Virus record (IMG/VR): IMGVR_UViG_3300020603_000015
Coordinates: 1 to 64,000 of that record
DNA from: a virus
DNA: 64,000 bases
Direction: 5' to 3' (one strand)
The position numbers and the translations under genes were made by a program. Of the stretch, positions 1 to 59,650 are shown piece after piece (positions within the stretch are counted from its first letter, which is position 1; every line of letters begins with the position of its first letter). Under the pieces are notes generated by a model, which was given only the letters and a program-made list of their open reading frames with translations, ran no database searches and was not told where the DNA came from.

Positions 1-1807
1 AAATAACTAGTGGTTTATTTGTCTTTTTATTAATTATCTTGATACTAACTGTGCCTGGCTCATGTATAATATCAATGTCAGAGAAATCTAACGCAGGATG
101 TTTGTCAATTATTTGTGATTTGCCTGCTTTGACCTGTTTTGGTCCAACTAGTGCCATTAAGAACTTTGTTTCTTTATCCTCATAACCCATGATCTTTAAT
201 AGATTTTTAAGGAATAATTCTTTATTTTCTGGAGATGATTTATAAAAAGAATTGAGTTTATTAGCTACCCTATCTGCTAGATATTGATTTAGTGGATATC
301 TTGCGGCAGTTCTTTCTTTTCTCAATTGATTTATAAATTCTTCATCTTCGTCATTATCTTTTGCATATTTGACTCCCTGTTCTGCTTCTTTTGCAGCTGC
401 ATCAAGATCTTTAAATTTTTTATCCGATTTTAATTCACTGGTAAACTTGACAGATTCTTCTTCGCCGCATAAATTTCTTATTAAACTAGCCTTTGTGCTA
501 TTTGACAAATTAACATTTTTTGTCTGATACATCTTAAGACTATATGCATCTAGAACTTCTTCACCCGACGACTTTTTTACTTTTAATCTAATATCTGCCT
601 TGAATTCAGCGCCTTGTAAAAACGATTTATTATCGAGAAATATTTGTAATATATTACCTCTGTTTTTGCCGACCGAGTTAATTATGTATGACGACATGTC
701 ATTACTTGCTAATGATATCACCGATCTGATTTCTTCATATTTAGTGCCGGCGACGTCTCTTAATTTTTTATCCCAAATATTCACTACACTTTCCACTTCT
801 GGTATATATCGTTTACCCTCATCATTCAATTGTACAACTTTGGTTACATAGTTTTCATTGATATCTTCGGTCAGAACAATATCAATTGGAGTTTCGTTTT
901 TCTGAATTACATATTTTACAGTCAGAGCTTCATTATAATTACCACGTATAGCTTCTAAAGCACCCTCACTAACTGGATTTGGTGATTCTATACCACTCTT
1001 GTCTTTATTAATAGAAGAAGGAATGGTAATTTCAGTTTCTTCTCCAGGCTCCAAATCACTCATACTATTTGTGATTAGTATATTTATAACTGACCTAAAA
1101 TAGGACTTAACTTTTTCCCATGTTTTTTTAAAAAATCCTGTAATTTTGCTTAGTAATGATTCATTGATTGAAATAATTACACCTATTTTTTCATCATATA
1201 CTTGTTCGCCAATTAAATCACCCTCTGAATTATACCAACTCATTCCTTTTCTGTAGAAACCATACTTAACAGCTTCATCTACACTATAATTTATCAATGG
1301 TGTTTCGCCAGTCAATATGGCAACATTCGCAACAGCGTCTTGTTTTATAGCTCCAGTAGATCTTTCGTCTTTATCATCCGCTTCTATGTCTGTTTGAACT
1401 TCTTTATCTATCGATACAATATCCTTCTTTTCTTCATCTGACTTTTCTTCATCTGGTTGTTTTTCAGTAGCTCTTACAGCCGATAAATCTCCAGGTACAT
1501 TAAATATATTAGCTTGTACTTTTTTTGGATTTTCGACAAAATGCGTTCCTTTATTTACAGCTCGATTACGATATTCTTTGCTTGGAAAGGTTACAAGTAT
1601 ACCATCTTTATTATAAGCCTGTCGTTCTGGGAATCGACCCGCTTCAAAAAGTGTAGCGGTTCTGTCTACAATCTCATCAATACCATAACCATTTTTTTCT
1701 AGGTACTCTTGTAATATTAACACATGTTCCGGATTATTAATATCAAGAACACCATTCTTTATACGAGAATCGCAACAAACATCATTTATAATTGACTTAA
1801 AATTCAT
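1..1807 (-). CDS. Partial large phage protein, function unknown (C-terminus beyond window)
   Basis: The minus strand is open from an ATG at 1807 to the window edge, about 602 codons with no stop, so the C-terminus lies outside the window. I do not recognise the family with confidence. Residues about 100-160 form a charged Glu/Lys/Asp-rich linker, followed by a helical stretch with several Lys and aromatic residues near residue 230. The second half contains an Asp, then a Ser-Leu-Lys triplet (near FKADIRLKV and DAYSLKMYQ), and later AARYPLNQYLADRV. The D...SLK spacing recalls PD-(D/E)XK nuclease cores, but this is only a weak resemblance. An ATATTTATA motif lies a few bases upstream of the start. 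It follows the polymerase-like gene in the same direction. A virion structural or nuclease-like protein is possible. Confidence 0.7.
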   Translation of the reverse strand, partial: MNFKSIINDVCCDSRIKNGVLDINNPEHVLILQEYLEKNGYGIDEIVDRTATLFEAGRFPERQAYNKDGILVTFPSKEYRNRAVNKGTHFVENPKKVQANIFNVPGDLSAVRATEKQPDEEKSDEEKKDIVSIDKEVQTDIEADDKDERSTGAIKQDAVANVAILTGETPLINYSVDEAVKYGFYRKGMSWYNSEGDLIGEQVYDEKIGVIISINESLLSKITGFFKKTWEKVKSYFRSVINILITNSMSDLEPGEETEITIPSSINKDKSGIESPNPVSEGALEAIRGNYNEALTVKYVIQKNETPIDIVLTEDINENYVTKVVQLNDEGKRYIPEVESVVNIWDKKLRDVAGTKYEEIRSVISLASNDMSSYIINSVGKNRGNILQIFLDNKSFLQGAEFKADIRLKVKKSSGEEVLDAYSLKMYQTKNVNLSNSTKASLIRNLCGEEESVKFTSELKSDKKFKDLDAAAKEAEQGVKYAKDNDEDEEFINQLRKERTAARYPLNQYLADRVANKLNSFYKSSPENKELFLKNLLKIMGYEDKETKFLMALVGPKQVKAGKSQIIDKHPALDFSDIDIIHEPGTVSIKIINKKTNKPLVI

Positions 1808-1822
1808 CAATTATAAATATAA

Positions 1823-3121
1823 TTAAGTTTGTTGTAATTTCAAATCATGGTAATTATTTCCAGTATAAACTTTAACTTTGAACTTTTTGTTCTTAACTAT
1901 GTCAATAACATCGTTTAAAGTCTGTTGTGTTACATCCTTACTGACATCAAACAATATACTATCATAGACATAAAGTATGGGTAACATGGGTTTATCACTC
2001 AAATACTTGATAACATTACCCAAACTATTCAAACCATACTCAGTTTCAGCCGCCTGAATAATATAAGCAAATAGTTTGTTTTTATTAGGATCCTTAATGT
2101 GATTACTGGTTATTTTCCTCTTATAGATTGGCGTTGTGACATAACCCTTCTTTTCAAACATTTCCCAATATTTGTTCTTTAACTGGTCTGTTTTAGCAAA
2201 ATATGGTATGGATAGATATTGATCTTTAATATGTCCATATAGATTTACCATAGTCAATTTCTTGGATTTACTCATGGTTTCTGCATCAACAATGTCTACA
2301 TTATAGTATTGTTTAGCCAAATGTTCATATATAGTTTCATTATCAGGCACTTTATAATCAATTAAATTGCTTACAATATATGGATGAAAACCTGTAAAGT
2401 CTATCATCATCAAATGACCACCATCGTATCTGGATACAAAACTTTTTCTACAACCATCCTCTTTGTTTAGAGCTACGTAGTTTACACTATCAAACTTATT
2501 GCTGGGTCTACCAGTTGGATTATAAATGTTATACTGAGTATACACATAACCATCATTTGTTTTAGCCTTAAAATGTTCTTTGAATATAGATTCGTCAATC
2601 TTTATACCATTCTTCTCAACCTCATACAGAGTATCTGATATAACGTTGTTGAAAAACTTGAAACAATATGAATCCTTCTTTTCTTCGTTTAGTGTTTCAA
2701 TTTGAAGTACCTCTTGGTCAAAGTCTTTTTGATGATTAACGTATGGATATATCATATTCATATCATTAATATCACCAACACGAATTTTTATACTCAGATA
2801 TGTTTCTGAGTCTTGTTCTTCAATAATTTTGTTATCTTTGAGAAAACCAAATAAATTTACATCAATTAGGTTACAATTCTTTAAGATATACTTATATCGT
2901 TTTTTGTTGTTTACATAAATATCTCGGTCTTCTGACTTGATGTATTTTATGAAACTCTTGAGAGTATCGTTAACGTCTACATCTGGATGACAAAAGTTAA
3001 AATAGTGTTTATCCTTAGTAAAATAATCATACACAAACGCAACAATAACTTTGTCATACGATATGTGTTTATTTACATTTCGAGTGATAAACTTTAGATA
3101 TATTTGATTTGAGAGATGCAC
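1823..3121 (-). CDS. Divergent family A DNA polymerase-like protein without exonuclease domain
   Basis: The C-terminal half carries a recognisable Pol I palm/finger pattern: TGRPSN near residue 203, motif A with Asp241 in MMIDFTGFH, motif B-like KKLTMVNLYG (Lys288, Tyr295, Gly296), a Q-helix-like IQAAETEYG near 356, and motif C-like LYVYDSILFD with Asp387. Both catalytic aspartates are present. The usual Glu of motif A is replaced by His, and the His-Asp-Glu of motif C reads Tyr-Asp-Ser. Residues 1-150 resemble no 3'-5' exonuclease that I can identify, and 432 residues is short for the family. T4-like phages normally use a family B polymerase, so this may be a specialised, repair or degenerate polymerase. 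A TTGACAT-type promoter lies just upstream and would give an almost leaderless message. Confidence 0.72.
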   Translation of the reverse strand: MHLSNQIYLKFITRNVNKHISYDKVIVAFVYDYFTKDKHYFNFCHPDVDVNDTLKSFIKYIKSEDRDIYVNNKKRYKYILKNCNLIDVNLFGFLKDNKIIEEQDSETYLSIKIRVGDINDMNMIYPYVNHQKDFDQEVLQIETLNEEKKDSYCFKFFNNVISDTLYEVEKNGIKIDESIFKEHFKAKTNDGYVYTQYNIYNPTGRPSNKFDSVNYVALNKEDGCRKSFVSRYDGGHLMMIDFTGFHPYIVSNLIDYKVPDNETIYEHLAKQYYNVDIVDAETMSKSKKLTMVNLYGHIKDQYLSIPYFAKTDQLKNKYWEMFEKKGYVTTPIYKRKITSNHIKDPNKNKLFAYIIQAAETEYGLNSLGNVIKYLSDKPMLPILYVYDSILFDVSKDVTQQTLNDVIDIVKNKKFKVKVYTGNNYHDLKLQQT

Positions 3122-17734: not shown

Positions 17735-20700
17735 TTATGAAAAAACCTCAATATATTTTGTACCAGCCGTAAAAGCATTTGAACCGCCATTCGACACACT
17801 TGCCGCTATATAAATACGAATATATCCGGCTAATGTTCTACCACTACTACTTGTTGTAGCTATACCATTACAATTTGCAATAGACAAAAAGTTGCTAGTA
17901 TTACCCGCTCCATATACATACAATCTACCATTTGCATCGGGTACATCACCCACACCTATATTTGTATTAGTAACTTGAAATGTCCTAGTAGCAGCCGCAT
18001 ATATAGAAATTGGTAATGTTTGATTATAAAAATAAGCTTCAGTGGGCGCATTATTTAAGTAAGATTCTCCATTAGAATTTCTAAATGCTATATCATTACT
18101 TCCAAATGAGAAACTCCCAGGCGATGCTCCTCGTTTAACTGTTAAAGGATTAGTACTCGTTGATGTATCATTTACACCTAAATGACTATTAGCTGTGTCA
18201 TGAAATAAAAAGGTGCTATCTTTTAGAGTTGTAGAAGATGTGGAATAAATGACTCTATCAGTGTTTGTAAATGAACCACCACTTATACCACTAGTACCGG
18301 CTGGCGCAGCAAGACCACTTGTACCTGTCGTACCTGTTGAACCACTCGTAGCATTTGCAGTACTTGTACCACCTGTAGCAGTAGCACCATTTGTACCACT
18401 TGTACCACTGCTACCACTGGTAGAACTTACAGTACTTGTACCACCTGTAGCAGAAGCACCACTGGTACCACTTGTACCATTGCTACCACTTGTTGCGCTT
18501 GTACCGCTTGTTCTTGCACCAGTACCACTAACACCATTATTACCACTTGTACCACTGCTACCAGTTGTTGCGCTTGTACCGCTTGTTCTTGCACCAGTAC
18601 CGCTTGTACCATTATTACCACTTGTACCACTGCTACCAGTACTACCACTAGTAGAACTTACAGTACTTGTACCACCTGTAGCAGTAGCACCACTGGTACC
18701 GCTGCTACCAGTACTACCACTGGTAGAACTTACAGTACTTGTACCACCTGTAGCAGAAGCACCACTGGTACCACTTGTACCACTGCTACCACTTGTTGCG
18801 CTTGTACCGCTTGTTCTTGCACCAGTACCGCTTGTACCATTATTACCACTTGTACCACTGCTACCAGTACTACCACTAGTAGAACTTACAGTACTTGTAC
18901 CACCTGTAGCAGCAGCACCACTGGTACCGCTGCTACCAGTACTACCACTGGTAGAACTTACAGTACTTGTACCACCTGTAGCAGAAGCACCACTGGTACC
19001 ACTGGTACCACTGCTACCACTGCTACCACTTGTACCGCTTGTAAAACTTAAAGTACTTGTACCACCTGTAGCAGAAGCACCACTTGTACCACTGGTACCA
19101 CTGCTACCACTGGTAGAACTTACAGTACTTGTACCACCTGTAGCAGCAGCACCACTGGTACCGCTGCTACCAGCACTACCACTAGTAAAACTTACAGTAC
19201 TTGTACCACCTGTAGCAGAAGCACCACTGGTACCACTTGTACCACTGCTACCACTGCTACCACTTGTACCGCTGGTAAAACTTAAAGTACTTGTGCCACC
19301 TGTAGCAGAAGCACCACTGGTACCACTGCTACCACTGCTACCACTGCTACCACTTGTACCGCTGGTAAAACTTAAACTACTTGTACCACCTGTAGCAGAA
19401 GCACCACTGGTACCGCTGCTACCAGTACTACCACTGGTAAAACTTATAGTACTTATACCACCTGTAGCGGACGCACCACTGGTACCACTGGTACCACTGC
19501 TACCACTGCTACCACTTGTACCGCTGGTAAAACTTTCAGTACTTGTACCACCTGTAGCAGAAGCACCACTGGTACCGCTGCTACCACTTGTACCGCTGGT
19601 AAAACTTAAAGTACTTGTACCACTTGTTCCGCTTACACCACTGGTACCAGCAGTACCACCTGTACCACTTGTGCCACTTGATGATCCACTTAAACCACTG
19701 GTACCAACCAAACCACTGCTACCAGCAGTACCGCCTGTACCACTTGTACCACTGGTACCACTTGTACCACTTGTACCACTGGTATCACTTGTACCGCTTG
19801 TACCATTATTACCACTGGTACCACTTGTGCCACTGCTACCACTTGTAAATGCACCCGAACCACTTGTACCACTTGTTCCGCTTACACCACTGGTACCAGC
19901 AGTACCACCTGTACCACTTGTGCCACTTGATGATCCACTTAAACCACTGGTACCAACCAAACCACTGCTACCAGCAGTACCGCCTGTACCACTTGTACCA
20001 CTGGTACCACTTGTACCACTTGTACCACTTGTACCACTTGTTTGGCTTACACCACTGGTACCAGCAGTACCGCCTGTACCACTTGTACCACTTGTTGATC
20101 CACTTAAACCACTGGTACCAACCAAACCACTGCTTCCATTAGTTCCTCCAAATCCACTTGTACCACTTGTACCACTTATACCACTTGAAAAACAACTGTT
20201 ACCACTTGTACCATTTGTACCATTTTGACCACTGCTACCACTGGTACCAGTGGTACCGCTTGTTCTTGCACCAGTACCACTAGTGCCATTTGTACCATTT
20301 GCACCACTGCTACCACTGCTACCACTTGTACCACTTGAAAAACAACTGCTACCACTTGTACCATTCAAACCACTTGTACCATTTGTACCACTTGTACCAC
20401 TTGAAAAACAACTGCTACCACTTGTACCACTTGTACCATTTGCACCACTGGTACCACTGGTACCACTGGTACCGGTAGTACCGCTTGTTCCTGAACCACC
20501 ACTAGTGCCATTTGTAGCAGATAATCCGCTGCTACCACTCGTACCATTCAAACCACTTGTACCATTTGTACCACTCGTACCACTTGAAAAACAACTGATA
20601 CCACTTGTACCACTCGTTCCGCTTTTACCACTTGTACCACTTGTACCACTGCTACCACTGCTACCACTAGTGCCACTTGTACCACTCGTTCCGCTTGTAC

Positions 20701-21124
20701 CACCCGTACCATTTGTACCACTCGTTCCGCTTGTACCACTCGTTCCGCTTGTACCAGATGTACCACTTATACCACTAGTACCATTTGTACCAAATATACC
20801 ACTTGTACCGGAAGTACCGGTTACACCACTAGTGCCTGACGCGGGTGCTATAAAAACTTCTTTTGTGATATTATCTATGGCTAAAACATGAGTTAACGGA
20901 AATGGACCAGCGCCTGTACCTGACGGAAGATTAGTATATAGATTATTGGAAACATATATTTTTGAAGCAGTTATTTCGTTTAGGTTTTTTGAACCTGTTA
21001 AAAGGCCTTGTGCGTTTGTAATAATTAATAAATTGCTACCAGAAACCACCCTTTCTGTAAAATTATTTCCAGAGGAGTCACGTTGAGTAAAAAGAGATGC
21101 AAATCTATCGATACTACTACCCAT
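17735..21124 (-). CDS. Collagen-like Gly-Thr-Ser repeat tail fibre protein
   Basis: A 1129-residue protein. The first about 95 residues are ordinary sequence with a probable virion attachment role. Residues about 95-950 are an almost uninterrupted Gly-X-Y array in which X and Y are mostly Thr, Ser, Ala or Asn, as in collagen-like triple helices of phage and microbial fibres. The C-terminal 170 residues (from about GSFTNTDRVIYS) are a conventional strand-rich domain ending in KYIEVFS and may be the receptor-binding tip. Four SCFSSG units break the Gly-X-Y pattern and bring cysteines into the shaft. Proline is nearly absent, so triple-helix stability may need glycosylation. It lies downstream of the neck genes, with a glycosyltransferase downstream. 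On the plus strand it creates a spurious Pro-Leu-Val frame. Confidence 0.85.
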   Translation of the reverse strand: MGSSIDRFASLFTQRDSSGNNFTERVVSGSNLLIITNAQGLLTGSKNLNEITASKIYVSNNLYTNLPSGTGAGPFPLTHVLAIDNITKEVFIAPASGTSGVTGTSGTSGIFGTNGTSGISGTSGTSGTSGTSGTSGTNGTGGTSGTSGTSGTSGSSGSSGTSGTSGKSGTSGTSGISCFSSGTSGTNGTSGLNGTSGSSGLSATNGTSGGSGTSGTTGTSGTSGTSGANGTSGTSGSSCFSSGTSGTNGTSGLNGTSGSSCFSSGTSGSSGSSGANGTNGTSGTGARTSGTTGTSGSSGQNGTNGTSGNSCFSSGISGTSGTSGFGGTNGSSGLVGTSGLSGSTSGTSGTGGTAGTSGVSQTSGTSGTSGTSGTSGTSGTGGTAGSSGLVGTSGLSGSSSGTSGTGGTAGTSGVSGTSGTSGSGAFTSGSSGTSGTSGNNGTSGTSDTSGTSGTSGTSGTSGTGGTAGSSGLVGTSGLSGSSSGTSGTGGTAGTSGVSGTSGTSTLSFTSGTSGSSGTSGASATGGTSTESFTSGTSGSSGSSGTSGTSGASATGGISTISFTSGSTGSSGTSGASATGGTSSLSFTSGTSGSSGSSGSSGTSGASATGGTSTLSFTSGTSGSSGSSGTSGTSGASATGGTSTVSFTSGSAGSSGTSGAAATGGTSTVSSTSGSSGTSGTSGASATGGTSTLSFTSGTSGSSGSSGTSGTSGASATGGTSTVSSTSGSTGSSGTSGAAATGGTSTVSSTSGSTGSSGTSGNNGTSGTGARTSGTSATSGSSGTSGTSGASATGGTSTVSSTSGSTGSSGTSGATATGGTSTVSSTSGSTGSSGTSGNNGTSGTGARTSGTSATTGSSGTSGNNGVSGTGARTSGTSATSGSNGTSGTSGASATGGTSTVSSTSGSSGTSGTNGATATGGTSTANATSGSTGTTGTSGLAAPAGTSGISGGSFTNTDRVIYSTSSTTLKDSTFLFHDTANSHLGVNDTSTSTNPLTVKRGASPGSFSFGSNDIAFRNSNGESYLNNAPTEAYFYNQTLPISIYAAATRTFQVTNTNIGVGDVPDANGRLYVYGAGNTSNFLSIANCNGIATTSSSGRTLAGYIRIYIAASVSNGGSNAFTAGTKYIEVFS
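18275..20840 (-). repeat. Collagen-like tandem repeat region with two nested longer periods
   Basis: The 9-base repeat coding Gly-X-Y extends over about 2.5 kb. Within it, blocks containing ASATGG and then SFTSG or SSTSG recur about a dozen times around 18350-19620. A second block type (containing TAGSSGLVGTSGLSG and relatives) recurs about three times around 19620-20130. DNA of this kind expands and contracts easily, so exact copy number may differ among relatives or assemblies. Confidence 0.85.
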
Positions 21125-21175: not shown

Positions 21176-22585
21176 TTAATATGACTGAAACAATGATGTA
21201 ACTATTCTTCTCCATTGACCCGCGCTATAAATATAAAAATAATTACCATCATAGCTTATCCAACCATCTTGACCATAATCATTTGATTGAACTGGTGTTT
21301 GTTGATAAAACTTATCTGGGAATCGTTGAAATACTCTAAATGCTGTATTTATAGGTCTACGAGAACTTGTTGTATATATTGGATTATTGCATTCATCATA
21401 GCCACTTATATAGGTACTGGTAGAAGGATCATAATCGAACACAGAAATAGCTCTTCTCATCCAACCGAGAGGGTATTGATATATATAGATATAATTTGAA
21501 TCGTATGCGAGCCAACCATTTTCTCCATATTCGTTTGAACTTTTTGGCGGTGGGTGAAATGGAATCTTTGTGATAGAAACAGATTTCTTTTCAGTTGGAT
21601 ATACATCCTTTATAATATTTTTATCTATAGGCTGTACACCCACTCCATCAACATAATCAAAATCTTGTTGTTTATCTTTAATAGCTGTTGTATCTTCGAA
21701 ACCATATTGTTTTGCATTATTCTTAATATTATCCATCTGTTCAGCATCTACCGCAGCCTCCATCAACTTAATCTTTCTGATGGTAAACATCTTTTGGGTA
21801 GTATTCTTGATACCTTCTAGGCCAGGTATAAACGATGGATTCAACAAATAACCATTTACGGTTAAATTGAATGTGGTTTTAACATTTCTATCATTGGTAT
21901 CATCCAACTCAATATCGGTGGTAAAGTTATCAGCTTTTACCAAAAACTTAAATCTTTCTTTATCACCCCAATAATCATTGCAAGCGTAACTTATTTCTTC
22001 TAAAAGTTTGTTATTTTGATCAACATAATCGGTCCAAATTACGCATTCATATGTAACTATGACTTGTTTAGGCAATGTTACGGTGAATATTTGTTTGGTT
22101 GGTCTAGAATTAAACAATATGTTGCTGTTTAAGATGTTGAATCTGTCATACTTATTTTTTTCTGAATAAGGTACAATAGCTTGATATGCCAAATAACGAT
22201 TAAACGTAGCACGATCCTTATTATCCGCAACTTCTGAGCGTCTCATCATAAATGCAGGCAATAGTATTTTACCTTGATTATCTCTAATATACCCATCTTT
22301 TTTCATAGCGGCCCATCTTTCTGGACTACCATATATGATAGGTACTTTAACCAATTCACCATTATCCATCACTTGTAGATTGATCTTATTATTGATAAAA
22401 CCCATAATGGTACTATCAATGTCCATCAAATCTATCGTGAGATTTTTTACTTCATCTGTATCACGACGTATAGCAAATTGGCGCTTATATGTGATATCTT
22501 TGTCAGATTGTGCCATTGGATCTTGCACCATGTTTGGTACAGGATTTACTTGATTATTAGATATTGAACTTACTTGCCATGGCAT
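21176..22585 (-). CDS. Neck/tail completion protein with tandem C-terminal aromatic repeats
   Basis: A 469-residue protein starting MPWQVSSIS. Residues about 30-110 carry a conserved-looking structural core (IRRDTDEVKNLTIDLMDID, then IIYGSPERWAAMKKDG), which I associate with neck or tail-completion proteins in T4-like phages. Residues about 350-385 and 434-466 are two copies of a Trp/Tyr-rich unit (YGENGWLAYDSNYIYIY and YGQDGWISYDGNYFYIY, each ending in a Trp-Arg-Arg element). They look like surface beta-motif modules added to the C-terminus. The gene lies 3 bases after a probable gp14-like gene and upstream of the fibre gene. T4 gp15 is the natural counterpart by position. Confidence 0.62.
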   Translation of the reverse strand: MPWQVSSISNNQVNPVPNMVQDPMAQSDKDITYKRQFAIRRDTDEVKNLTIDLMDIDSTIMGFINNKINLQVMDNGELVKVPIIYGSPERWAAMKKDGYIRDNQGKILLPAFMMRRSEVADNKDRATFNRYLAYQAIVPYSEKNKYDRFNILNSNILFNSRPTKQIFTVTLPKQVIVTYECVIWTDYVDQNNKLLEEISYACNDYWGDKERFKFLVKADNFTTDIELDDTNDRNVKTTFNLTVNGYLLNPSFIPGLEGIKNTTQKMFTIRKIKLMEAAVDAEQMDNIKNNAKQYGFEDTTAIKDKQQDFDYVDGVGVQPIDKNIIKDVYPTEKKSVSITKIPFHPPPKSSNEYGENGWLAYDSNYIYIYQYPLGWMRRAISVFDYDPSTSTYISGYDECNNPIYTTSSRRPINTAFRVFQRFPDKFYQQTPVQSNDYGQDGWISYDGNYFYIYSAGQWRRIVTSLFQSY

Positions 22586-30350: not shown

Positions 30351-31007
30351 TCATAGAGAGTAATTAGTTCTGTAGGATTGGACAATTGCCCACTTATTTT
30401 CGGGTTGAAATATTTGAGGATACTTTAAATACGAAGCATGTCCATCTGCATATATATATGATGCTCCATTGTTGTGCTTTTTAAAATCTAATTCAGTTTG
30501 ATCATTACCTTTTCCTTCAAATATATCCATATAAAAATGTCTTGAATTTCCTAACTTTTCCCCAAATATTACTGTTTCACTTACGAATAGAATGGAACTA
30601 GACTTCAATGGTTCCTCTAAAATGTCCCAATCCGCGTCAAAATATTCATAGTAATAATCATTAAATCCATTGATTATAAAACTACGATTTGATTTGTTAA
30701 TGTTTGTTTCAACTAGATTATTTGTAAATTTATCGACAGGACATCTTAATATACCAACATTCTCATAATATGGTTTTAATGCTAATGGCCACTGATTTGT
30801 CAAACTACGCGGCGGATATATGTCATTATAATCTAACTTATATTGTTCAGCTGAAAGACCCAATTGCCTAGAGTTGTTTAAACATTGTATTTGAAGCGCT
30901 TTACTTTTTGCTTTACTCAATGATGGTAATAAAAGACCGGCTAATATTGCAATTATAGCTATTACCACTAGTAATTCAATCAAAGTAAATGCTTTTTTAT
31001 TTTTCAT
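30351..31007 (-). CDS. Type II/IV pseudopilin with H-X9-DG motif
   Basis: A 218-residue protein with a textbook prepilin N-terminus: MKNKKA then [22 protein letters not shown], with cleavage predicted after Ala6 and the Glu5 of the mature pilin. The C-terminal part has [14 protein letters not shown], in which His178 and Asp188-Gly189 are separated by exactly nine residues. This H-X9-DG arrangement marks pseudopilins typical of Planctomycetes, Verrucomicrobia and Lentisphaerae. Phages rarely encode such proteins, so it points to the host lineage. The protein would be processed by a host prepilin peptidase and could enter host pilus or secretion machinery. It starts 3-4 bases from a preceding very short frame and is followed by the 311-residue gene. 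Confidence 0.88.
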
Positions 31008-31841: not shown

Positions 31842-32183
31842 TTAATTAAAACTTTTACCACAACCACAAGTGCTTGCTGCATTTGGATTAATAAATTTAA
31901 AACCTCCGCCCATTAATTCATAAGAATAATCTAGTTCAGCCTCTTTAATATAATTCGCACTAAAATTGTCTATGACTACACTCACACTTTCATATTCATA
32001 TACCAAATCATTGTCTCTGATTTCATCAAATGTCATACCATACTGTAAACCACTACATCCACCTGCTTCTACAAATATTCTCAAACTTTTGTTTTTATAA
32101 TCCTCTGTATTTTTAACTAAATTATTTACTTCGGTTAAAGCATTATCAGTTAATTTAATTATTGAAGTTTCTAATTTTATCAT
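31842..32183 (-). CDS. A-type iron-sulfur carrier (IscA/HesB-like)
   Basis: A 113-residue protein with all the features of A-type carriers: FVEAGGCSGLQYGM with Cys43, and near the end a STCGCG motif (Cys106 and Cys108). Between them it has SYELMGGGFKFINPNA typical of the family. It starts 3 bases after the end of the 200-residue gene. A-type carriers deliver Fe-S clusters to enzymes; a phage copy would be an auxiliary metabolic gene supporting host or viral Fe-S enzymes. All three cysteines are intact. Confidence 0.9.
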   Translation of the reverse strand: MIKLETSIIKLTDNALTEVNNLVKNTEDYKNKSLRIFVEAGGCSGLQYGMTFDEIRDNDLVYEYESVSVVIDNFSANYIKEAELDYSYELMGGGFKFINPNAASTCGCGKSFN

Positions 32184-34609: not shown

Positions 34610-35143
34610 TTACTTATTAGAATTGACTTTAAAATTGTTATGACACCCAATTACATACTTTTGAGCCTCTTTATTATGAATCCATCCCTTTACTTTAATA
34701 GGATTGGGTTTTTTATTAACCTTCTTATACAACCTAAAAAAGTCTTCACACACTGTTAAAAACATAGAATCTAGATCATCTATATCTTCGTAATTATTTG
34801 GATTATATGTTGGAACTCCTAATATTTTATAGTCTTTCTTATCGTAATCATATGTTACTAATCCACCCACAATCTTAACCGTTATAAGAGATAAAGGTAT
34901 AAGAGGTACGGTGTTATATATTAAAATATCGGTTGGATCTCCATCCTCGGATAAAGTTTGGGGTAAAAATCCATAACTGGCTGGATATTGAAGTGAACTA
35001 ATTAAACATCTATCCAATCGTAACATGTTTAATTTAACATCATATTCATATTTTGCATTTGTATCTTTTGGTATTTCTACAATAGCATGAGCCTCAGTTG
35101 GAAACAGTATGGGTTGCGAAACATTAATTAAATTTTGTAGCAT
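34610..35143 (-). CDS. ppa: Family I inorganic pyrophosphatase
   Basis: A 177-residue soluble pyrophosphatase: AIVEIPKDTNAKYEYD near residue 17, then SLQYPASYGFLPQTLSEDGDPTDIL, which includes the family signature Asp-Gly-Asp-Pro-x-Asp that binds magnesium. A DIDDLDSMF stretch supplies further acidic residues. Phage copies are uncommon, but the enzyme would remove pyrophosphate from nucleotide and DNA synthesis or from the glycosyl/nucleotidyl transfers encoded elsewhere here. A clear TTGACA-N17-TATACT promoter lies just upstream, nearly identical to that of the neighbouring endonuclease gene. Confidence 0.88.
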   Translation of the reverse strand: MLQNLINVSQPILFPTEAHAIVEIPKDTNAKYEYDVKLNMLRLDRCLISSLQYPASYGFLPQTLSEDGDPTDILIYNTVPLIPLSLITVKIVGGLVTYDYDKKDYKILGVPTYNPNNYEDIDDLDSMFLTVCEDFFRLYKKVNKKPNPIKVKGWIHNKEAQKYVIGCHNNFKVNSNK

Positions 35144-49336: not shown

Positions 49337-52300
49337 TTATTCACCGAAACTAGCACCAGTTGGTAGAATGTTGAAGTCAAGGATAATGAATTCAGCAGTT
49401 CTAGCTGGTTGGATGAAGATTTGACCATAAAGGATATTTCTATCAATTAGGTCAGGTGTATTGTTTTGTTCATCCATCTTAACTTGATAAGCATAGATAC
49501 CATTACGTTGTTGTACAGATTCTAAATATGGATTTACGATACTCAAGAATCTATTACGTGTAGCAGCTACGTTTTGTTCGAATACCAAGTATTTGCTTGA
49601 ACTTGCGATAAACTTCTTCAAGTTAATCAACAAGCGACGAACATTGATACGATCCAAAGCGCTTGGAGCAATTTGTAGAGTCTTTTGACCCCACACACAG
49701 ATACCTTGACCTGGAAAGGCTGCGATTGGATTTACACGACCTTCGTACAATTCATCACGTTCACTATGTGTAGTTCTATCCAGAACTTGTACAGCGATTG
49801 GAATACCACCACGATTTAGACCAGCAGGAGCATACCATTCAGCAGATGCATTATCGTTAGCAGCATAAACTGCTGGTAATACCACTGAAGGAGGTACACT
49901 AATAATCTTGTTGGTATTAGTATCTAGAATCTTTACCCATGGATAATATGTAGCAACATAGTTACTATCAATTGTAGCGACTGAGTTGACGGCGGCATCA
50001 ATCAATCCGACAGTTTGGTTACTTGCTGGGAACACGACGTTATCCATGATATAGAAACAATCACCACGAGCTTCGCACATATCGATTGTAATTTCAGTTA
50101 CGTAGCTGTGTTGTTCACGGAAGATGCCAGGCAATACAATCAAGTTGATATCAAATTCATCCGCATTACCTAGAGCAGCGATACATTGTTTGTATGCAAT
50201 ACTACCTGGGCTATTGATATTTGTACAATCTAGACCTTGTGTATTACCAGCGGTAATATCACTTCCTAGAGCGATTGGAATTGATGGCCATTTACCATCA
50301 AATCCACCTTGGAATCCCACTAGGAACTTACGTAGTTTTACGTATGTAGATTCATTAACTGGATCATAGTTACTTGGAATACTACCACTCAGGGATGGAT
50401 CTAGTAGTGAACCAGTACCATTTGCATAGAACTTGGCGTTTTGAGTACCTCGAGTCTTGTCTTCCAAGTCAAAGTCAATATTTATACCATTTACGCTACT
50501 TGGCAATGGTTTGAAATATTCGTCGGTATCGTTATATACACCAACATTTGCTGAAGAAGTTGGATACAAAGATACCAATTCATCGTCGGCTTGAGGTACG
50601 TCGTTGAATACTGTACCACAACTATATTTACCAGGCGCTAGAGACCAGATACTTGCTTTGCTATATCTGACCGGAGGAATAATATCTGCTAAAGTACCAG
50701 CGACTGGAGTAGAATATGATTCAAATCCATATGGTACAGATACTTCTGGATATAAACCATCAGCCATTTCAATTCTGATGAATTGACTCAAGTTAACATA
50801 TGTACCAAATTCGATGATTTTACCAGCGAATGTGATGTATGCGTAACGATCACCAATTCTACGTGCAATGAAGTTTGCACTATCAGGATTTAAATTCAAG
50901 TTTTGATAAATTTCCAAATACTTTGGACGTTTATCTGTGTCACTATAAGCACGAACTGCAAGTGAGAATGAACCCCAATCACTACCTGGGACTGTACCAG
51001 CCAACTTAACGTTGCTGATTTCAATCTTGTATTTCTTGTTACTCAACGTACCATCACTTAGTGTATGTATCTTGAACAATTGATACTTGGTTGGTACTGC
51101 GGATTCATTTGCACTACCTCTAAATGGAGCAATCTTTTGTGAGTAGATCCATGGAGTATATGCATTAGTGATACTAAATTGACTATCACCCGCAGTAAGA
51201 TTTGTGCTGTATTGGTCAACAAACTTTAATGGTTCACCAATTGCAAATCCAGCTTCTGGAGCTGTATTTGCTAGCAACTTCCAACCACCGCCTTCAGCAC
51301 TTGGACGAGTCTTTTCAGCGACAAATCTTTGAATACTATCTTGGAACAACATGTAGTTGTAAGCAGCTTCTACTTTTTGACCAGCAACTTGTTTTGCTGG
51401 GTTACCAGCGGTTGGATCAAATCCAAATACATTTCCAACGAAATTATTATCACTCTCATTTAGGGTGAAGTCATAATAACCATATGTTCCTGCACTTGTG
51501 GTACCATCATCATTTGCGAAGCTATACTTTAAGATTAGTTGATATGCATTTTCATTTGGATTAATCAATCCCTTATATGGGAATACTGAACTTGTTAGTT
51601 GACTTAGTGTTGATGTATCAAAACCATATACTTCATATCTATTGTTGAATTGTGAAGAAGCATTTTGAGTATTATTCAATACTGCCAATACCATCTTGCT
51701 TCTTGCAGATGAATTTGGGTTACATGGATCACCACCAGATGTGTCTTGATTTGTGAATGTACCATCAAAATCACCATAAGCACCAGCTACTAGACCCAAG
51801 AATTGTAGACTTGATCCACAGGTGCTTGCACCTCTAATAGACTTGAAACTTGCACTATGTAGTGATAATGTACCATTTACATCAAATGTGGTTGTATCAT
51901 AATCCAAACTTACCTTCGCACTTGAAGTCATAGATGCGGACAAATAAGCTACCGTTTCAGAGCTTTCATTAAATGCCGTAGCAATCTTAGTCTCGGGTGT
52001 TACGTTTTGGTTTTGTACACTAGAGGTCAAATAATAGTATCCAGCAAAAATTCCTGCTGTTGGCGTTGTACCGGTGATCTTTCTTAGCAAATATGTATTT
52101 GCGCCCGATGAATTGGTGGTGCTAACAGTACCCAGTGTTACTTGTTTACCCGCGTATAGTACTGATCCACTCAAAAATCCACCCGTACCATTATAATTAC
52201 TATAATAAACCGCTGTTGCTGCTTTTGGTGCGAACTTACCACTTACAATACCATTTACTCTTAAACGTGATGTATCATGTCTGTATGTAAATACTGCGTC

Positions 52301-53272
52301 TGACTTTGAACTGCTAATACTAGCATTGCTAAAGTCTAAAGCGCAATCAGCTGGATATCTACCGAAGACTAATCCAAATGTAACATTATTACTATTCAAT
52401 GTATAAGATTGAGTTAAATAATTATAATATGCACTAGGTAAAAACGAAGATGAGAATGCAATTGAATATTTGGTGGCACCTATAGAAGCAGATATATTTC
52501 CTGCTATTTTGTATTTTTGATAATCAAAGTTTGCTAGGACATATTCAGAAGATCCACCTGATGGTTGAACTTTGTATCCTTGTTGCACTACAGATGCGCT
52601 GAAGATATAAGAATTGTTCGTTGTAGTAATTTTAAACAATTTACCTTTACTACCAGACGATGCTAATGAGGCTGACAACGTATTACTATTTGCGATAGTT
52701 GGCCAACCAATTGATACTAGGAATTGTTGAATTTCCAAATTAGTAGCGCGGGTTACACTTAATGATGATGATATTCTACCAGTAGTACCAGCTAATCCTT
52801 TAATACCTGTTGTACTTGACTTAAGTTCTGATGAACTATATTCTAGAATTAAATTTGAAGAATAATTATCACTATCCAAAAACATGAATGATGCGGTAGT
52901 CAATGCACCCAAATCACTATTTCTGTTCCAATAACCTGGCTGAGCATAGATGACCAATGGGTTTTTTTGCCAGTATCCGGTCAAACCACCAACACGAACA
53001 ACAGTTACCACACCTTGTTGTAACAAGTATTCTTTAGCGGTATATGGACCATAATATACCCCATCTGCTAATCCAAATCGTTGTTCAAGCTCCGCAACCT
53101 CTGTAATTCTGGCTGGGAAAAATGCGGGTCCGTCTGAAAACGGTGCTACTATAGCACCTCCGATATTGGCTACACCTTGGGCTAGCCCCGATAGATCATT
53201 TTCTCTAGTAAATACACCAGGACTTACTATATTTTGTACTGGTGAAAATCTCCCACCTTCTGTTATTGGCAT
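49337..53272 (-). CDS. gp18: Tail sheath protein (T4 gp18-like), unusually long
   Basis: A 1311-residue protein, about twice the length of T4 gp18 (659). The N-terminal 100 residues (ENDLSGLAQGVANIGGAIVAP) and the C-terminal 150 residues (RRLLINLKKFIASSSKYLVFEQN with TRNRFLSIVNPYLESVQQRNG) are typical of contractile sheaths and make the core fold. Between them is a long Ser/Thr/Asn/Gly-rich insertion (about residues 130-900), presumably surface domains. A recognisable ribosome binding site (GAAAGGA) and a terminator after the stop support strong expression. Confidence 0.9.
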   Translation of the reverse strand: MPITEGGRFSPVQNIVSPGVFTRENDLSGLAQGVANIGGAIVAPFSDGPAFFPARITEVAELEQRFGLADGVYYGPYTAKEYLLQQGVVTVVRVGGLTGYWQKNPLVIYAQPGYWNRNSDLGALTTASFMFLDSDNYSSNLILEYSSSELKSSTTGIKGLAGTTGRISSSLSVTRATNLEIQQFLVSIGWPTIANSNTLSASLASSGSKGKLFKITTTNNSYIFSASVVQQGYKVQPSGGSSEYVLANFDYQKYKIAGNISASIGATKYSIAFSSSFLPSAYYNYLTQSYTLNSNNVTFGLVFGRYPADCALDFSNASISSSKSDAVFTYRHDTSRLRVNGIVSGKFAPKAATAVYYSNYNGTGGFLSGSVLYAGKQVTLGTVSTTNSSGANTYLLRKITGTTPTAGIFAGYYYLTSSVQNQNVTPETKIATAFNESSETVAYLSASMTSSAKVSLDYDTTTFDVNGTLSLHSASFKSIRGASTCGSSLQFLGLVAGAYGDFDGTFTNQDTSGGDPCNPNSSARSKMVLAVLNNTQNASSQFNNRYEVYGFDTSTLSQLTSSVFPYKGLINPNENAYQLILKYSFANDDGTTSAGTYGYYDFTLNESDNNFVGNVFGFDPTAGNPAKQVAGQKVEAAYNYMLFQDSIQRFVAEKTRPSAEGGGWKLLANTAPEAGFAIGEPLKFVDQYSTNLTAGDSQFSITNAYTPWIYSQKIAPFRGSANESAVPTKYQLFKIHTLSDGTLSNKKYKIEISNVKLAGTVPGSDWGSFSLAVRAYSDTDKRPKYLEIYQNLNLNPDSANFIARRIGDRYAYITFAGKIIEFGTYVNLSQFIRIEMADGLYPEVSVPYGFESYSTPVAGTLADIIPPVRYSKASIWSLAPGKYSCGTVFNDVPQADDELVSLYPTSSANVGVYNDTDEYFKPLPSSVNGINIDFDLEDKTRGTQNAKFYANGTGSLLDPSLSGSIPSNYDPVNESTYVKLRKFLVGFQGGFDGKWPSIPIALGSDITAGNTQGLDCTNINSPGSIAYKQCIAALGNADEFDINLIVLPGIFREQHSYVTEITIDMCEARGDCFYIMDNVVFPASNQTVGLIDAAVNSVATIDSNYVATYYPWVKILDTNTNKIISVPPSVVLPAVYAANDNASAEWYAPAGLNRGGIPIAVQVLDRTTHSERDELYEGRVNPIAAFPGQGICVWGQKTLQIAPSALDRINVRRLLINLKKFIASSSKYLVFEQNVAATRNRFLSIVNPYLESVQQRNGIYAYQVKMDEQNNTPDLIDRNILYGQIFIQPARTAEFIILDFNILPTGASFGE

Positions 53273-53348: not shown

Positions 53349-53876
53349 TTAAATTTTACCAACTAATTTTTTTATTATATCAATTGACGGAATTTTCTCC
53401 AACTCATTTTTTAGAAATGAGTATTTGAGGTTATATTTTTGTCTGGAGATTTCATAATTATCATAATTTTCATTAAAAAAAGTTAAATTTATACCATATT
53501 TAAAACGTGTGTTATTTACTTTATTAAATAAATCAATATACTTAGTCCACACGTTTGCTTCATCAATATTATCGGTCTTCAAGTTAAACATAAAATTGAA
53601 ATCTGATATTTTAAAATTATACTCATCTATACATTCTACACCAGTATCCATATCAAACGCATATAATTTTATAGAATCAAATTCTAAAGGAATGAATTCT
53701 GGTTTTGTATACCAATATCCAAATTTTATATTTTCTGTGGAATAGTATTGATTTGTACTACTTTTCATTACATAGTGTAATGCATGGTTGATATATTTTT
53801 GGGGTACATTATAGAAGTTTAACCTCTGTACGGAAGTGATATAATCTATTTTAAAATAACCATTTTTAGAATTCAT
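53349..53876 (-). CDS. Hypothetical protein at the end of the glycan-modification operon
   Basis: A 175-residue protein, overlapping the carbamoyltransferase gene by 4 bases (ATGA). It is rich in Tyr, Phe, Asn and Lys (ISDFNFMFNLKTDN), and may be a small strand-rich domain. No motif is recognised. Its coupling suggests a role with the carbamoyltransferase or a glycan-binding role. A 76-base gap to the sheath start follows. Confidence 0.6.
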   Translation of the reverse strand: MNSKNGYFKIDYITSVQRLNFYNVPQKYINHALHYVMKSSTNQYYSTENIKFGYWYTKPEFIPLEFDSIKLYAFDMDTGVECIDEYNFKISDFNFMFNLKTDNIDEANVWTKYIDLFNKVNNTRFKYGINLTFFNENYDNYEISRQKYNLKYSFLKNELEKIPSIDIIKKLVGKI

Positions 53877-55513
53877 ACTAATTTATAAATTTTATTGTTA
53901 ATAATTAAAAGATCTACAGTACCTTCAGCCAAATGTTTTAGTGCGTGATTTGGTGAATTGATAATAGGCTCTCCATGACCATTAAAACTTGTATTCATTA
54001 AAACGGGTATTTTAGATCGATGATTATAAGCGGAAAGTATCTTATGAAATAGAGAATGTCTATATTTATTTACAACTTGTGGTCTAGCTGTATTATCATA
54101 AAAATTTATAACCGCCGGTATTTTATTGGCCCATTGTTCTTTTACGGTATAACATAAAGTCATAAACTCTGCAGTTCTTTTAGATTTATATACATAGCAT
54201 ACATCCTCAATGTATTCTTCCATGACTATAGGTGCGAATGGCATAATATCGTCACGTTTTAATCTTTCATTTATATATGCATGAGTTTCTTTTCTGGTTG
54301 GCTCTACAACAATAGAACGTGAACCTAAAGCTCTTGGACCATATTCTGTAGCACCATCAAATATACCAATAACTTTACCATCAACCAGATAGTCTCCAAT
54401 TTTATTAAAATCTAAATCTTCGGATGCTAGTGTCTTTCCAAAATTGGATTGGAAATTATCAATATCAATTTGTGTGTCTTGATATGATGTTTTATTACCA
54501 AGAAATACATTATCAATTCTTCTATTTGTAAACACACCCAATTCTACAGCATATGCAATTGCTGATCCAAGAGATAATCCTTCATCATTCATAGCAGGAT
54601 ATACCCACATCTCTTTAAATGGTAATAATTCGTTTATCTTTTGGTTGATTTTAACATTTGCAAAAATACCACCTGCTAAACATAGATTATCAAATGGTCC
54701 ATACTCATCGTAATATTTCTTTATAAAATTAAGAATAGTAATTTCGCTGATATATTGTAGATTGTATGCTAAATCTCTTTTTAGATTCAAAGCATCTTCT
54801 TTTGATAGTGTTTTCAACAATGTGGTGTACTTTTCCTGAATCATACACGATGCTTTTAACATATCGTTTTGCACAAAGAAATTCAATGTATCAAATATCT
54901 TTTGATTGAATTTTCCCTGCGCAGCAAGACCCATAATCTTACCCTCGTCTTTAATAGGAGTAAGACCAAATATCAAACACATCAAAAACCAAAGATTAGC
55001 AACGCTTCCATTTTTAACACGTTCACCAATTTCAATTAGTTTACCATTTTTAACAATATAACATGCAGTTTGACTATCGTTTTTTGCCTTCCACGGATTA
55101 TAACGATCATAATTTTCTTTATTCAATATTGTCCAATCATCATCGCCACAATCGCCACCATCATATGCAACGATTAATGTATTTTCGTTAAAGCCGGATG
55201 TATAATAAGCACCGCATGCGTGTGCATATTCGTGTCCAATAGTTCTAAGTTCTCTGTTATTTACAATATCACGCAAAAATTTATGTTCTGTAGCTATAGG
55301 TTTAGCACAAGCAAATTTTACGTTTGGATCGTTAATATCAAAATTAAAGTTTTTTTGTAAAGCATCTAGACTATTGATTGGGAATATACAACCTGCGTGT
55401 GCTGATTTAACTCTTGTGAATCTTTCTTCGGAATAACAAGCTAATATTTGATTATTCTCAATTAAAGCAACGCCAACATCATGTGGTCCTATGTAGCTAC
55501 CTACTATTTTCAT
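53873..55513 (-). CDS. NodU/CmcH-type O-carbamoyltransferase
   Basis: A 546-residue protein. The N-terminal domain shows SEERFTRVKSAHAGCIFP (the SEERF...K.H element), IGHEYAHACGAYYTSGF with histidines for metal binding, and VAYDGGDCGDD. The C-terminal YrdC-like part shows GIFDGATEYGPRALGSRSI and FAPIVMEEY, then LMNTSFNGHGEPIINSP. These are all characteristic of NodU/CmcH/TobZ carbamoyltransferases that transfer a carbamoyl group from carbamoyl phosphate to a sugar or hydroxyl. The gene overlaps its neighbour 714-residue transferase by 4 bases. The substrate may be a sugar on a virion protein or lipopolysaccharide. Confidence 0.87.
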   Translation of the reverse strand: MKIVGSYIGPHDVGVALIENNQILACYSEERFTRVKSAHAGCIFPINSLDALQKNFNFDINDPNVKFACAKPIATEHKFLRDIVNNRELRTIGHEYAHACGAYYTSGFNENTLIVAYDGGDCGDDDWTILNKENYDRYNPWKAKNDSQTACYIVKNGKLIEIGERVKNGSVANLWFLMCLIFGLTPIKDEGKIMGLAAQGKFNQKIFDTLNFFVQNDMLKASCMIQEKYTTLLKTLSKEDALNLKRDLAYNLQYISEITILNFIKKYYDEYGPFDNLCLAGGIFANVKINQKINELLPFKEMWVYPAMNDEGLSLGSAIAYAVELGVFTNRRIDNVFLGNKTSYQDTQIDIDNFQSNFGKTLASEDLDFNKIGDYLVDGKVIGIFDGATEYGPRALGSRSIVVEPTRKETHAYINERLKRDDIMPFAPIVMEEYIEDVCYVYKSKRTAEFMTLCYTVKEQWANKIPAVINFYDNTARPQVVNKYRHSLFHKILSAYNHRSKIPVLMNTSFNGHGEPIINSPNHALKHLAEGTVDLLIINNKIYKLV

Positions 55514-57654
55514 AAATTATTATCTTTAATTAGACGATCAATTGTTTCTATAACCATTTGTGGGGTGATAGATTTTGTACATTCAAATATTTCCTTTTTC
55601 TCGGACTTCGGACACCACATCCAATTACCCCTATCAAAATAATTATCATTCCAACAACCAGTACATACATTTTTATTTTGCACACGATATGGAGTTTCAA
55701 ACTCTGTATAATCATATGAAAATCCACTAATCAATATGGTTGGCTTTTCTAATGCCCATGACAACCACGATAATCCCGATGGTAAACCTATAAAAAATGA
55801 GCTGTGATATATTTGATTCATACGATCACTCAATGGATGATCACCTGTTAAATCAATAGCATTTTGAGGTATAACATTCATATTGTCGCCATTACCCCAA
55901 CTATAATTTTTATCTATACAAACAACATCAAATCCTTTAGTCTTCAAGTATTCGATAACAATTTCCCAACCTCCTTTGTGATTCCAATACTTACATTGTG
56001 ATGTACTTTGTGTAGCAATAGTCACGGTAGGTTTTGTAAATGTCGAAGGCTTTAATGGAAAATCTAACAAAGGTCTTTCTGGAACATATGACAAACCTAG
56101 ATAATCGGAAACTATCTTTTGTAGAGGCTCTTTTCTTATATCAGTCTTACATCTATTGGTATTGATGGTTTTATCATCCACATACCAGCCTGGTTTATAT
56201 GTAGCAAACATTTCTGGACCGGATTCATCCATATTCAAAAATTTGATATTCTTATATTTCTTTTCGAAAAATGGACGTAGATTTGGAATCTTTACGTACA
56301 AATTACACTTATGTTTTACTCTGAATTGTTCAGTTATAGGCATCCAACACAACTGATCACCCAACGCTGGTGTATCAAATTGAATCAAAACATTTCTATC
56401 TGTCAAATCTAAATCGTAATCTAGTAAAGTCTTGCCTGTTAAATTGCTTTTTACTGAAATATTAAATGGAATATAATATGCAAAGTCACATCTTCCCCAC
56501 CAACCATCTTTGAGAGTTGTGTTATATAGAACTTGATCGGTTACCCTGTTTTTAAATACCACATCAAACGATTCATCTTTATTAACACAATTTGTTATTT
56601 CTATACACGCATTATCATTGAATGAATAGTTTATATTAGCTGTAATGGTTGCTTGATTAGTATTCTTATCCAATGTGTCGTATATGTTGACAAATTTATT
56701 TGCAAATAACTTATCAATATATTCATCGTATAGTTCTATTAACTGATCTGATCTCTTATCATAAGAATTATTTTTTGCAGCTTTTAATGCCTCTGTATGA
56801 TAGCGTTCATAATTGCTAATAACTTTTCCAATAGCATCTTTGATTTGTTTGGTATTTCTATCAACCACAATCATACCTTCGTATTTTTTGTCTTCAAATG
56901 TTCCTACTACAGGAAGACCACAAGCCATAGCTTCCAACAAAGTTAGATTTGGATGACCGGCTTCCAGTTCTGATGCGTGTATAAAAACATCATGGTTGTT
57001 ATATAACTCTATCAATCCATTTTCATCCAGATCAAATACTTTTGTCAGCTTTTCATAATTGTTTAATGACGACTCCAATGTTTCAAAAAATTTCCTGTTG
57101 TTACTTGGACCGGCGATTGTGATAGGTAGGTTTAATTCTTTAGCCGCCTGTATTGCAAACTTAAAACCTTTTCTATCGGCTGATTGATTGTTCGCATAAC
57201 CATTATTAGCTACACATAATAGTTTATAGTTTTCTCTATTATAGTTTTTGTATTTAAAAGTATCTGTATTAACAGCATGCGAAAAATATCTTAATTTTTT
57301 ACTACCAAAGTAGTCAACTAGATATTTTGCAGGACATGTTGATATAATACTATTTTCTATAGCCTTTAAATTCTCTTTAAATACTGGAGAATCTTTACCA
57401 TAAAGATAAGCATGATGATCGTGTAAAGTAAAGATGTATGGAATACCACGTTTATGACATTCATTTGCTAAATTAGCGACATGTACGTGAACAATAGTAT
57501 TGTCATTATACTTTATATCGTCCAAAAATTTGATCTCACATTCCAATCCTTTTTTGTTTAATTGAAGATAATAATCCCAAATTATTTTTTCTATAGCACC
57601 CCAACCATTAGGAGGAATAGGCAATAAACCCAAATGTACTTGTATTACTTTCAT
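55510..57654 (-). CDS. Bifunctional GT4 glycosyltransferase / BAHT-type protein O-heptosyltransferase
   Basis: A 714-residue fusion. Residues 1-310 are a GT4-type GT-B enzyme (PPNGWGAIEKIIWDYY near the start; EAGHPNLTLLEAMACGLPVVG near 230-250). From about residue 330 to the end the sequence follows bacterial autotransporter O-heptosyltransferases: NVLIQFDTPALGDQLCWMP, GLPSGLSWLSWALEKPTILISGF, and a C-terminal iron-finger-like motif NVCTGCWN...WMWCP...FECT with four cysteines. BAHT enzymes attach sugars to Ser/Thr of repeat proteins. Being fused to a GT4 may let one protein start and extend a glycan. It is followed by the carbamoyltransferase gene. Confidence 0.83.
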   Translation of the reverse strand: MKVIQVHLGLLPIPPNGWGAIEKIIWDYYLQLNKKGLECEIKFLDDIKYNDNTIVHVHVANLANECHKRGIPYIFTLHDHHAYLYGKDSPVFKENLKAIENSIISTCPAKYLVDYFGSKKLRYFSHAVNTDTFKYKNYNRENYKLLCVANNGYANNQSADRKGFKFAIQAAKELNLPITIAGPSNNRKFFETLESSLNNYEKLTKVFDLDENGLIELYNNHDVFIHASELEAGHPNLTLLEAMACGLPVVGTFEDKKYEGMIVVDRNTKQIKDAIGKVISNYERYHTEALKAAKNNSYDKRSDQLIELYDEYIDKLFANKFVNIYDTLDKNTNQATITANINYSFNDNACIEITNCVNKDESFDVVFKNRVTDQVLYNTTLKDGWWGRCDFAYYIPFNISVKSNLTGKTLLDYDLDLTDRNVLIQFDTPALGDQLCWMPITEQFRVKHKCNLYVKIPNLRPFFEKKYKNIKFLNMDESGPEMFATYKPGWYVDDKTINTNRCKTDIRKEPLQKIVSDYLGLSYVPERPLLDFPLKPSTFTKPTVTIATQSTSQCKYWNHKGGWEIVIEYLKTKGFDVVCIDKNYSWGNGDNMNVIPQNAIDLTGDHPLSDRMNQIYHSSFFIGLPSGLSWLSWALEKPTILISGFSYDYTEFETPYRVQNKNVCTGCWNDNYFDRGNWMWCPKSEKKEIFECTKSITPQMVIETIDRLIKDNNL

Positions 57655-59648: not shown

Positions 59649-59650
59649 AT

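Follow-up and report, generated by a model that had tools for sequence, protein, structure and literature searches.

The stretch analysed here, referred to as the window, comprises 64,000 nucleotides (positions 1 to 64,000) of the viral record IMGVR_UViG_3300020603_000015 and makes up most of that 66,077-bp IMG/VR record. By its gene matches the virus is a T4-like myovirus, as the calls in the window include a gp23 capsid protein, gp15-like and gp19-like proteins and baseplate matches, a T4-type portal and a terminase. Two loci are considered: a gene coding for a collagen-like fibre saturated with Ser and Thr, and a cassette of glycan enzymes built around a proposed protein O-heptosyltransferase of the BAHT type, for which the fibre may be the acceptor. 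The genes at the two loci are as follows.

16400-17431, minus strand: single-domain GT4 glycosyltransferase (PF00534, 30.7 bits; phrog_2170), called with a TTG start, directly downstream of the fibre gene
17735-21124, minus strand: collagen-like fibre gene, 1129 aa, with an N-terminal domain (residues 1-96), a Gly-X-Y zone (97-939, DNA about 18308-20836) and a C-terminal domain (940-1129)
21176-22585, minus strand: T4 gp15-like tail sheath stabiliser (PF16724), the upstream neighbour of the fibre gene and the marker of the fibre locus in relatives
49337-53272, minus strand: giant tail sheath, 1311 aa (phrog_23), directly downstream of the cassette
53349-53876, minus strand: 175-aa protein (p175), function unassigned, co-occurring with the carbamoyltransferase
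53873-55513, minus strand: NodU/TobZ-type O-carbamoyltransferase (PF02543/PF16861, phrog_1601; PDB 7xb6, E 9e-40), an optional part of the cassette
55510-57654, minus strand: GT4 (residues ~1-325) fused to BAHT (residues 338-708), 714 aa, proposed protein O-heptosyltransferase
57657-59654, minus strand: two-domain transferase, an N-terminal GT4 (PF13692) with a second domain of unassigned type, always beside BAHT in the clade
59651-60616, minus strand: FkbM methyltransferase (PF05050, TIGR01444), missing from one relative (L026/G018)
60618-63806, minus strand: SMC/metallophosphatase-like protein, the upstream border of the cassette

The fibre open reading frame (ORF) was placed exactly in a preliminary description of this DNA (17735-21124, minus strand, 1129 aa), and its product matches the Pfam Collagen family PF01391 (E 4.6e-40). 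It had been described as about 855 residues of Gly-X-Y, dominated by Thr and Ser and with almost no proline. The zone is indeed real (843 aa) and its composition is as described: Ser and Thr together number 461, charged residues number 7, and Pro is absent. Its continuity, however, was overstated, since 615 of the 843 residues (205 triplets) fall in 30 separate runs of at least four triplets, the longest of 27, with interruptions that include SCFSSG, TGARTSG and ASATGGTSTVSSTSG. In 2000 shuffles of the same residues the mean was 18 run triplets (maximum 51) and the longest run was 11. The X position is held by Thr (58%) and Ser (21%) and the Y position by Ser (73%) and Asn (9%), whereas bacterial collagen-like proteins favour Pro in X and carry their Thr mostly in Y (PMC8968730). 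The repeat draws on several synonymous codons (Thr: ACA 107, ACT 42, ACC 40; Ser: AGT 171, AGC 62), so that it is held by selection on the protein and is more than a DNA microsatellite. Of the features on which PF01391 proteins are judged, long runs with Gly at every third residue are thus present, and imino acids (Pro or hydroxyproline) or charge pairs as stabilisers of a triple helix are not.

Among contigs of the same population (L051-L060) the N-terminal domain is identical and the length of the repeat varies (1103, 1110, 1129 and more than 1400 aa), though an assembly error is possible; the first ~600 residues of the fibre are common to these contigs, one contig shares 166, and other contigs end inside the repeat. 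With the complete fibre as query, tblastn retrieved nothing from phage records, an outcome probably due to low-complexity filtering. A 659-aa ORF of Val-Pro-Leu (VPL) repeats on the opposite strand (18249-20228, plus) was rejected as a gene, being the antisense mirror of the Gly-Thr-Ser repeat. Such mirror ORFs mislead gene callers elsewhere as well; in Microcystis phage Mel-JY01 a coding sequence annotated at 739-2298 (minus) overlies the true Gly-X-Y ORF.

The assignment of the 714-residue enzyme as a fusion of GT4 with a genuine BAHT, proposed in the preliminary description, is strongly supported by sequence and by the modelled fold. Residues 338-707 score 328 bits against TIGR04414, for which the curated cut-off is 200, and the best match by sequence in the structure database is TibC (4rap, E 1e-71). 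TibC is likewise the top Foldseek match of an AlphaFold model of the enzyme (E 7e-33, template modelling score on the target 0.86), in which the iron-finger part is of low confidence. The catalytic Asp of TibC, D110, corresponds to D433, the chain of the D110A mutant 4rb4 carrying A in that column, and the iron-finger cysteines C339, C342, C358 and C370 correspond to C664, C667, C681 and C692. All five residues are invariant, also among phage BAHTs down to 35-43% identity; the alignment related to the AlphaFold work comprised 11 rows. The enzyme therefore resembles the BAHT family (TibC/Aah; TIGR04414, 4RAP/4RB4, PMC4358343) in its C-terminal 370 residues, catalytic Asp, four Cys and modelled fold, and differs from it in being phage-encoded and fused to a GT4, and in its association with Ser/Thr-rich Gly-X-Y proteins in a genome where neither an autotransporter nor a TIGR04415 acceptor was found.

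The other enzymes named in the preliminary description, namely the GT4 in the fibre operon, the second two-domain transferase, the carbamoyltransferase and the FkbM methyltransferase, were all located and have family matches. Throughout the clade the cassette (FkbM, two-domain transferase, BAHT and, optionally, the carbamoyltransferase) sits between the SMC-like and tail-sheath genes. In the nearest relatives that lack BAHT the SMC-like gene ends 104-184 bp before the sheath gene, which indicates that the cassette is an optional insert. The carbamoyltransferase and p175 are restricted to the subclade of the window; the carbamoyltransferase is absent from a clade at 65% identity and from most BAHT-bearing relatives, and at least one member lacks FkbM. 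The conserved core therefore consists of the two-domain transferase and BAHT, and carbamoylation and methylation would be optional decorations at best. The single GT4 beside the fibre has the same position in L056 and L057 and was not found next to the fibre in the other BAHT-bearing relatives. An AlphaFold model of the two-domain transferase was too poor to be used (predicted local distance difference test, pLDDT, 51.6). In L273 (G053; ~12070-12915), and also in G058, G059 and G061, the full BAHT is immediately followed by a second, short BAHT-like ORF of 270-294 aa. In another relative, G031 (contig L078, 303,564 bp), the same SMC-sheath-portal-capsid module is found at 64-81% identity with an empty cassette site; this may be a jumbo relative or an assembly artefact.

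Within the clade, the fibre locus of relatives was anchored by the gp15-like gene, and counts use contigs that reach it. All 12 BAHT-bearing contigs read as DNA have a Ser/Thr-rich Gly-X-Y fibre at the locus (Ser/Thr 0.69-0.92 of X+Y, Pro ~0), and six further BAHT-bearing contigs have such a fibre by Pfam match. No Gly-X-Y ORF was found in the five BAHT-lacking relatives with the fibre region (G025, G029, G030, G031, G032); several such relatives have, in its place, a 458-463 aa fibre of a different family. Only the cassette enzymes track BAHT and the fibre, besides a homing endonuclease and families found in only some BAHT-bearing contigs; the endonuclease, a 245-aa family of the GIY-YIG type, was rejected as unrelated. 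It would be wrong to take this contrast as many events, a view that the sheath tree rejects: the BAHT-lacking relatives form essentially one clade with about one loss (2 changes), so that the contrast amounts to roughly one evolutionary event. For this reason the weight is placed on tests across lineages.

Searching IMG/VR with a profile built from phage BAHTs gave at least 503 relatives, and the top 80 loci, which share 40-50% identity with a BAHT of a huge phage, were analysed. A Ser/Thr-rich Gly-X-Y ORF lies within 10 kb of BAHT in 48 of the 80, in 17 cases within 1 kb and in seven within 50 bp, as against 9 of 61 control loci from the tail module. Most of the BAHT loci without such an ORF are cut off by contig ends, and where at least 8 kb is present on both flanks 11 of 13 BAHT clusters (at 70% identity) have one; truncation biases the counts, mostly against detecting the link. 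In the reverse direction, 45 contigs of at least 30 kb were picked solely by a GTSGTS-type DNA pattern and scored for a BAHT above the cut-off. BAHT was present in 26 of them (22 of 27 at 50 kb or more; 20 of 39 outside the clade of the window), compared with 0 of 24 random and 2 of 24 T4-like contigs (Fisher p 6e-7 and 7e-5, respectively). Both sets of counts are without phylogenetic correction, and the lineages are not fully independent.

BAHT and Gly-X-Y genes are neighbours in unlike genomes. In 50,697 phage records the sole BAHT-bearing isolate is Mel-JY01, where a 1016-aa Gly-X-Y ORF (Ser/Thr 0.79; PP395634.1, 2-3052, plus) precedes the BAHT gene by 1.7 kb, with a second Gly-X-Y ORF behind. 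The deposited annotation misses the 1016-aa ORF, calling an antisense ORF and the 3' end only. Mel-JY01 also carries a gene annotated as prolyl 4-hydroxylase (L412 6570-7169; Mel-JY01 146571-147170), although prolines are few in its Gly-X-Y ORF. In LR756501 (L415), a phage of 735 kb, a pair made of a two-domain glycosyltransferase and a GT4-BAHT begins 99 bp from a Gly-X-Y gene; that phage has many separate long Gly-X-Y proteins, with open frames of up to 3488 aa, which tempers the adjacency there. BAHT and Gly-X-Y genes also adjoin in G057, and in two contigs binned to Flavobacteriia a Gly-X-Y ORF lies upstream of a row of glycosyltransferase, GT4 and BAHT, in one of them in the order Gly-X-Y, glycosyltransferase, GT4, BAHT. 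The related Flavobacterium phage immuto gave no BAHT match and no collagen. The coupling of BAHT to Ser/Thr-rich Gly-X-Y fibres is real at the genomic level and reaches far wider than the present phage, and the claim that the fibre is a probable substrate of the phage's own glycan enzymes finds support, as far as the coupling goes, in independent comparisons made in both directions.

As such fibres co-occur with phage BAHTs across many unrelated phages, it is probable that the phage itself glycosylates the fibre, and we consider O-glycosylation of its Ser/Thr by the phage's own BAHT to be the best reading, with a probability of roughly 60%; the acceptor, the sugar, the role in stability and the position in the virion are what we infer. 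The fibre would be a tail-associated, probably trimeric collagen-like shaft offering many Ser/Thr as O-glycosylation acceptors. The BAHT half of the enzyme would attach the initial sugar to Ser/Thr of the Gly-X-Y zone; going by the enzyme family, this would be D-glycero-D-manno-heptose, taken from the ADP-heptose of the host, a donor that laboratory E. coli makes too. Extension or capping of the glycan would fall to the fused GT4 and the two-domain transferase, joined by FkbM and the carbamoyltransferase in genomes that have them. Of the heavily glycosylated, carbamoylated and methylated shaft that was first envisaged, the glycosylated part is backed by the genomic coupling, and the carbamoyl and methyl part is weak since those enzymes are optional. 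Such a coat may stand in for proline, hydroxyproline or charge pairs and keep the rod stiff, hydrated and protease-resistant.

Collagen-like fibres are known from other phages. The side-tail proteins EPclA and EPclB, Gly-X-Y fibre proteins like the present one and trimeric, have Pro in about half of the X positions and many charged residues and are unglycosylated when recombinant, whereas the present zone is Ser/Thr-saturated (PMC3368898). As known phage collagens rely on proline and charge, and the present fibre has neither, it could plausibly be stabilised by a coat of glycan. A triple helix forms poorly with Thr in X and Ser in Y, and glycosylated Thr is able to stabilise collagen without hydroxyproline. 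A pairing of glycosyltransferase and collagen is found in Clostridioides difficile, where sgtA directly adjoins the gene of the collagen-like surface protein BclA3 and SgtA glycosylates Thr/Ser in its Gly-X-Y repeat; unlike the present system, SgtA adds N-acetylglucosamine and no BAHT is involved, and BclA3 has GPT repeats and belongs to the spore, compared with a proline-free repeat in a putative virion protein here (PMC7157674). Mimivirus, which also encodes an enzyme that glycosylates collagen (a predicted role in our case), is a eukaryotic virus whose L230, of another enzyme family, hydroxylates and glucosylates Lys (PMC9614988). The SgtA/BclA3 pair is a precedent for the pairing as such, and it is from likeness to it and from the enzyme family that we infer the BAHT-fibre mechanism. 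In mycobacteriophage virions, phage-encoded glycosyltransferases reportedly decorate the C-termini of capsid and tail-tube proteins, with no collagen-like shaft (Freeman 2023, as cited in PMC12619734); we know of no BAHT in that glycosylation.

Several observations weigh against glycosylation of the fibre by BAHT. Besides the single loss on the sheath tree, the enzyme lies 34 kb from the fibre in the window. TibC recognises a beta-helix, not a collagen-like chain (PMC4358343), and the TIGR04415 repeat, the canonical BAHT acceptor, has no match in the 66-kb record, which is incomplete. The known modification of Ser/Thr in repetitive adhesins by BAHT enzymes therefore does not carry over directly. 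BAHT without collagen occurs in LR756504, and Ser/Thr-rich Gly-X-Y without BAHT occurs in G039, G041 and 5 of the 27 GTS-repeat contigs of at least 50 kb; seven Gly-X-Y contigs without BAHT have no GT4 by Pfam, and GT2 in two only. Such phages, together with the incomplete independence of the lineages, would fit an indirect link, in which large phages of certain hosts tend to carry both genes, the fibre itself being a linker that is unmodified, disordered or polyglycine-II-like. We regard this as improbable given the immediate adjacency in several lineages (17 of 48 within 1 kb) and odds that, whichever way the test is run, are high relative to T4-like and random controls.

The chief competitor as acceptor would be a different virion protein, with the giant tail sheath as the likeliest candidate and the fibre merely sharing its tail module. 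Judged from sequence, this is a real alternative, if an unlikely one: the cassette always sits between the SMC and sheath genes in the clade, BAHT is near a sheath gene in 26 of the 80 distant loci, mostly ~300 bp upstream, a further point against the fibre, and the Ser/Thr content of the sheath is slightly higher in BAHT-bearing (0.192) than in BAHT-lacking (0.170) relatives. It is weakened by the constancy of the sheath, whose size and large extra domain are unchanged in relatives without BAHT while the Ser/Thr-rich Gly-X-Y fibres are gained and lost together with BAHT; only 18% of the sheath is Ser/Thr, and many BAHT loci have no sheath yet have Gly-X-Y next door. The extra part of the 1311-aa sheath amounts to ~850 residues before the conserved C-terminal part. 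Action on host surface glycans such as lipopolysaccharide (LPS) or capsule during infection, for instance as a superinfection block, has in its favour that LPS and capsule loci commonly contain GT9, GT4, FkbM and carbamoyltransferase domains and that PHROGs classes some of these genes as host-takeover. We give it a low probability, as the GT9-like domain of the 714-aa enzyme scores weakly as LPS heptosyltransferase I (17.4 bits), carries the BAHT-specific iron finger and is far above the protein O-heptosyltransferase cut-off, and the genes are located among late structural genes and follow the presence of one of structural function. Modification of phage DNA bases can be considered too, since phage glycosyltransferases often glycosylate DNA. 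Glycosyltransferase-based DNA hypermodification has reportedly been described (Pyle 2024, cited in PMC12619734), which counts for this option. It is very improbable here, the core enzyme belonging to a protein-acceptor family and no DNA-modification gene having been noticed among the window proteins scanned, from a contig that is incomplete.

Elsewhere in the window a prepilin-like protein is encoded at 30351-31007 (minus; accession ending 07963 and TIGR02532, with weak matches to DUF1559 and Verru_Chthon). Proteins of this type are common in Verrucomicrobiota and Planctomycetota, and it may hint at the host. Host-like metabolic genes code for an IscA/ErpA-type Fe-S assembly protein (31842-32183, minus) and an inorganic pyrophosphatase (34610-35143, minus).

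No report of BAHT in phages, or of its coupling to collagen-like fibres, was found in the open-licence papers searched. More tentatively than for the present fibre, and as less likely than not, we raise the possibility that many phages share such a system: their BAHT-type O-heptosyltransferases would glycosylate collagen-like Gly-Ser/Thr-Ser fibres that lack proline, and the glycan would stabilise the rod in place of proline or hydroxyproline. The known role of BAHT enzymes is to decorate autotransporters of bacteria, and the phage fibres would, if this is true, be a new acceptor class for the family. Hundreds of uncultured large phages would then sugar-coat their own fibres using one enzyme family, with a bearing on adsorption, stability and recognition of the virion. 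It would also provide a new way of making collagen-like fibres, by which bacteria could simply produce stable glycosylated material of this kind without proline.

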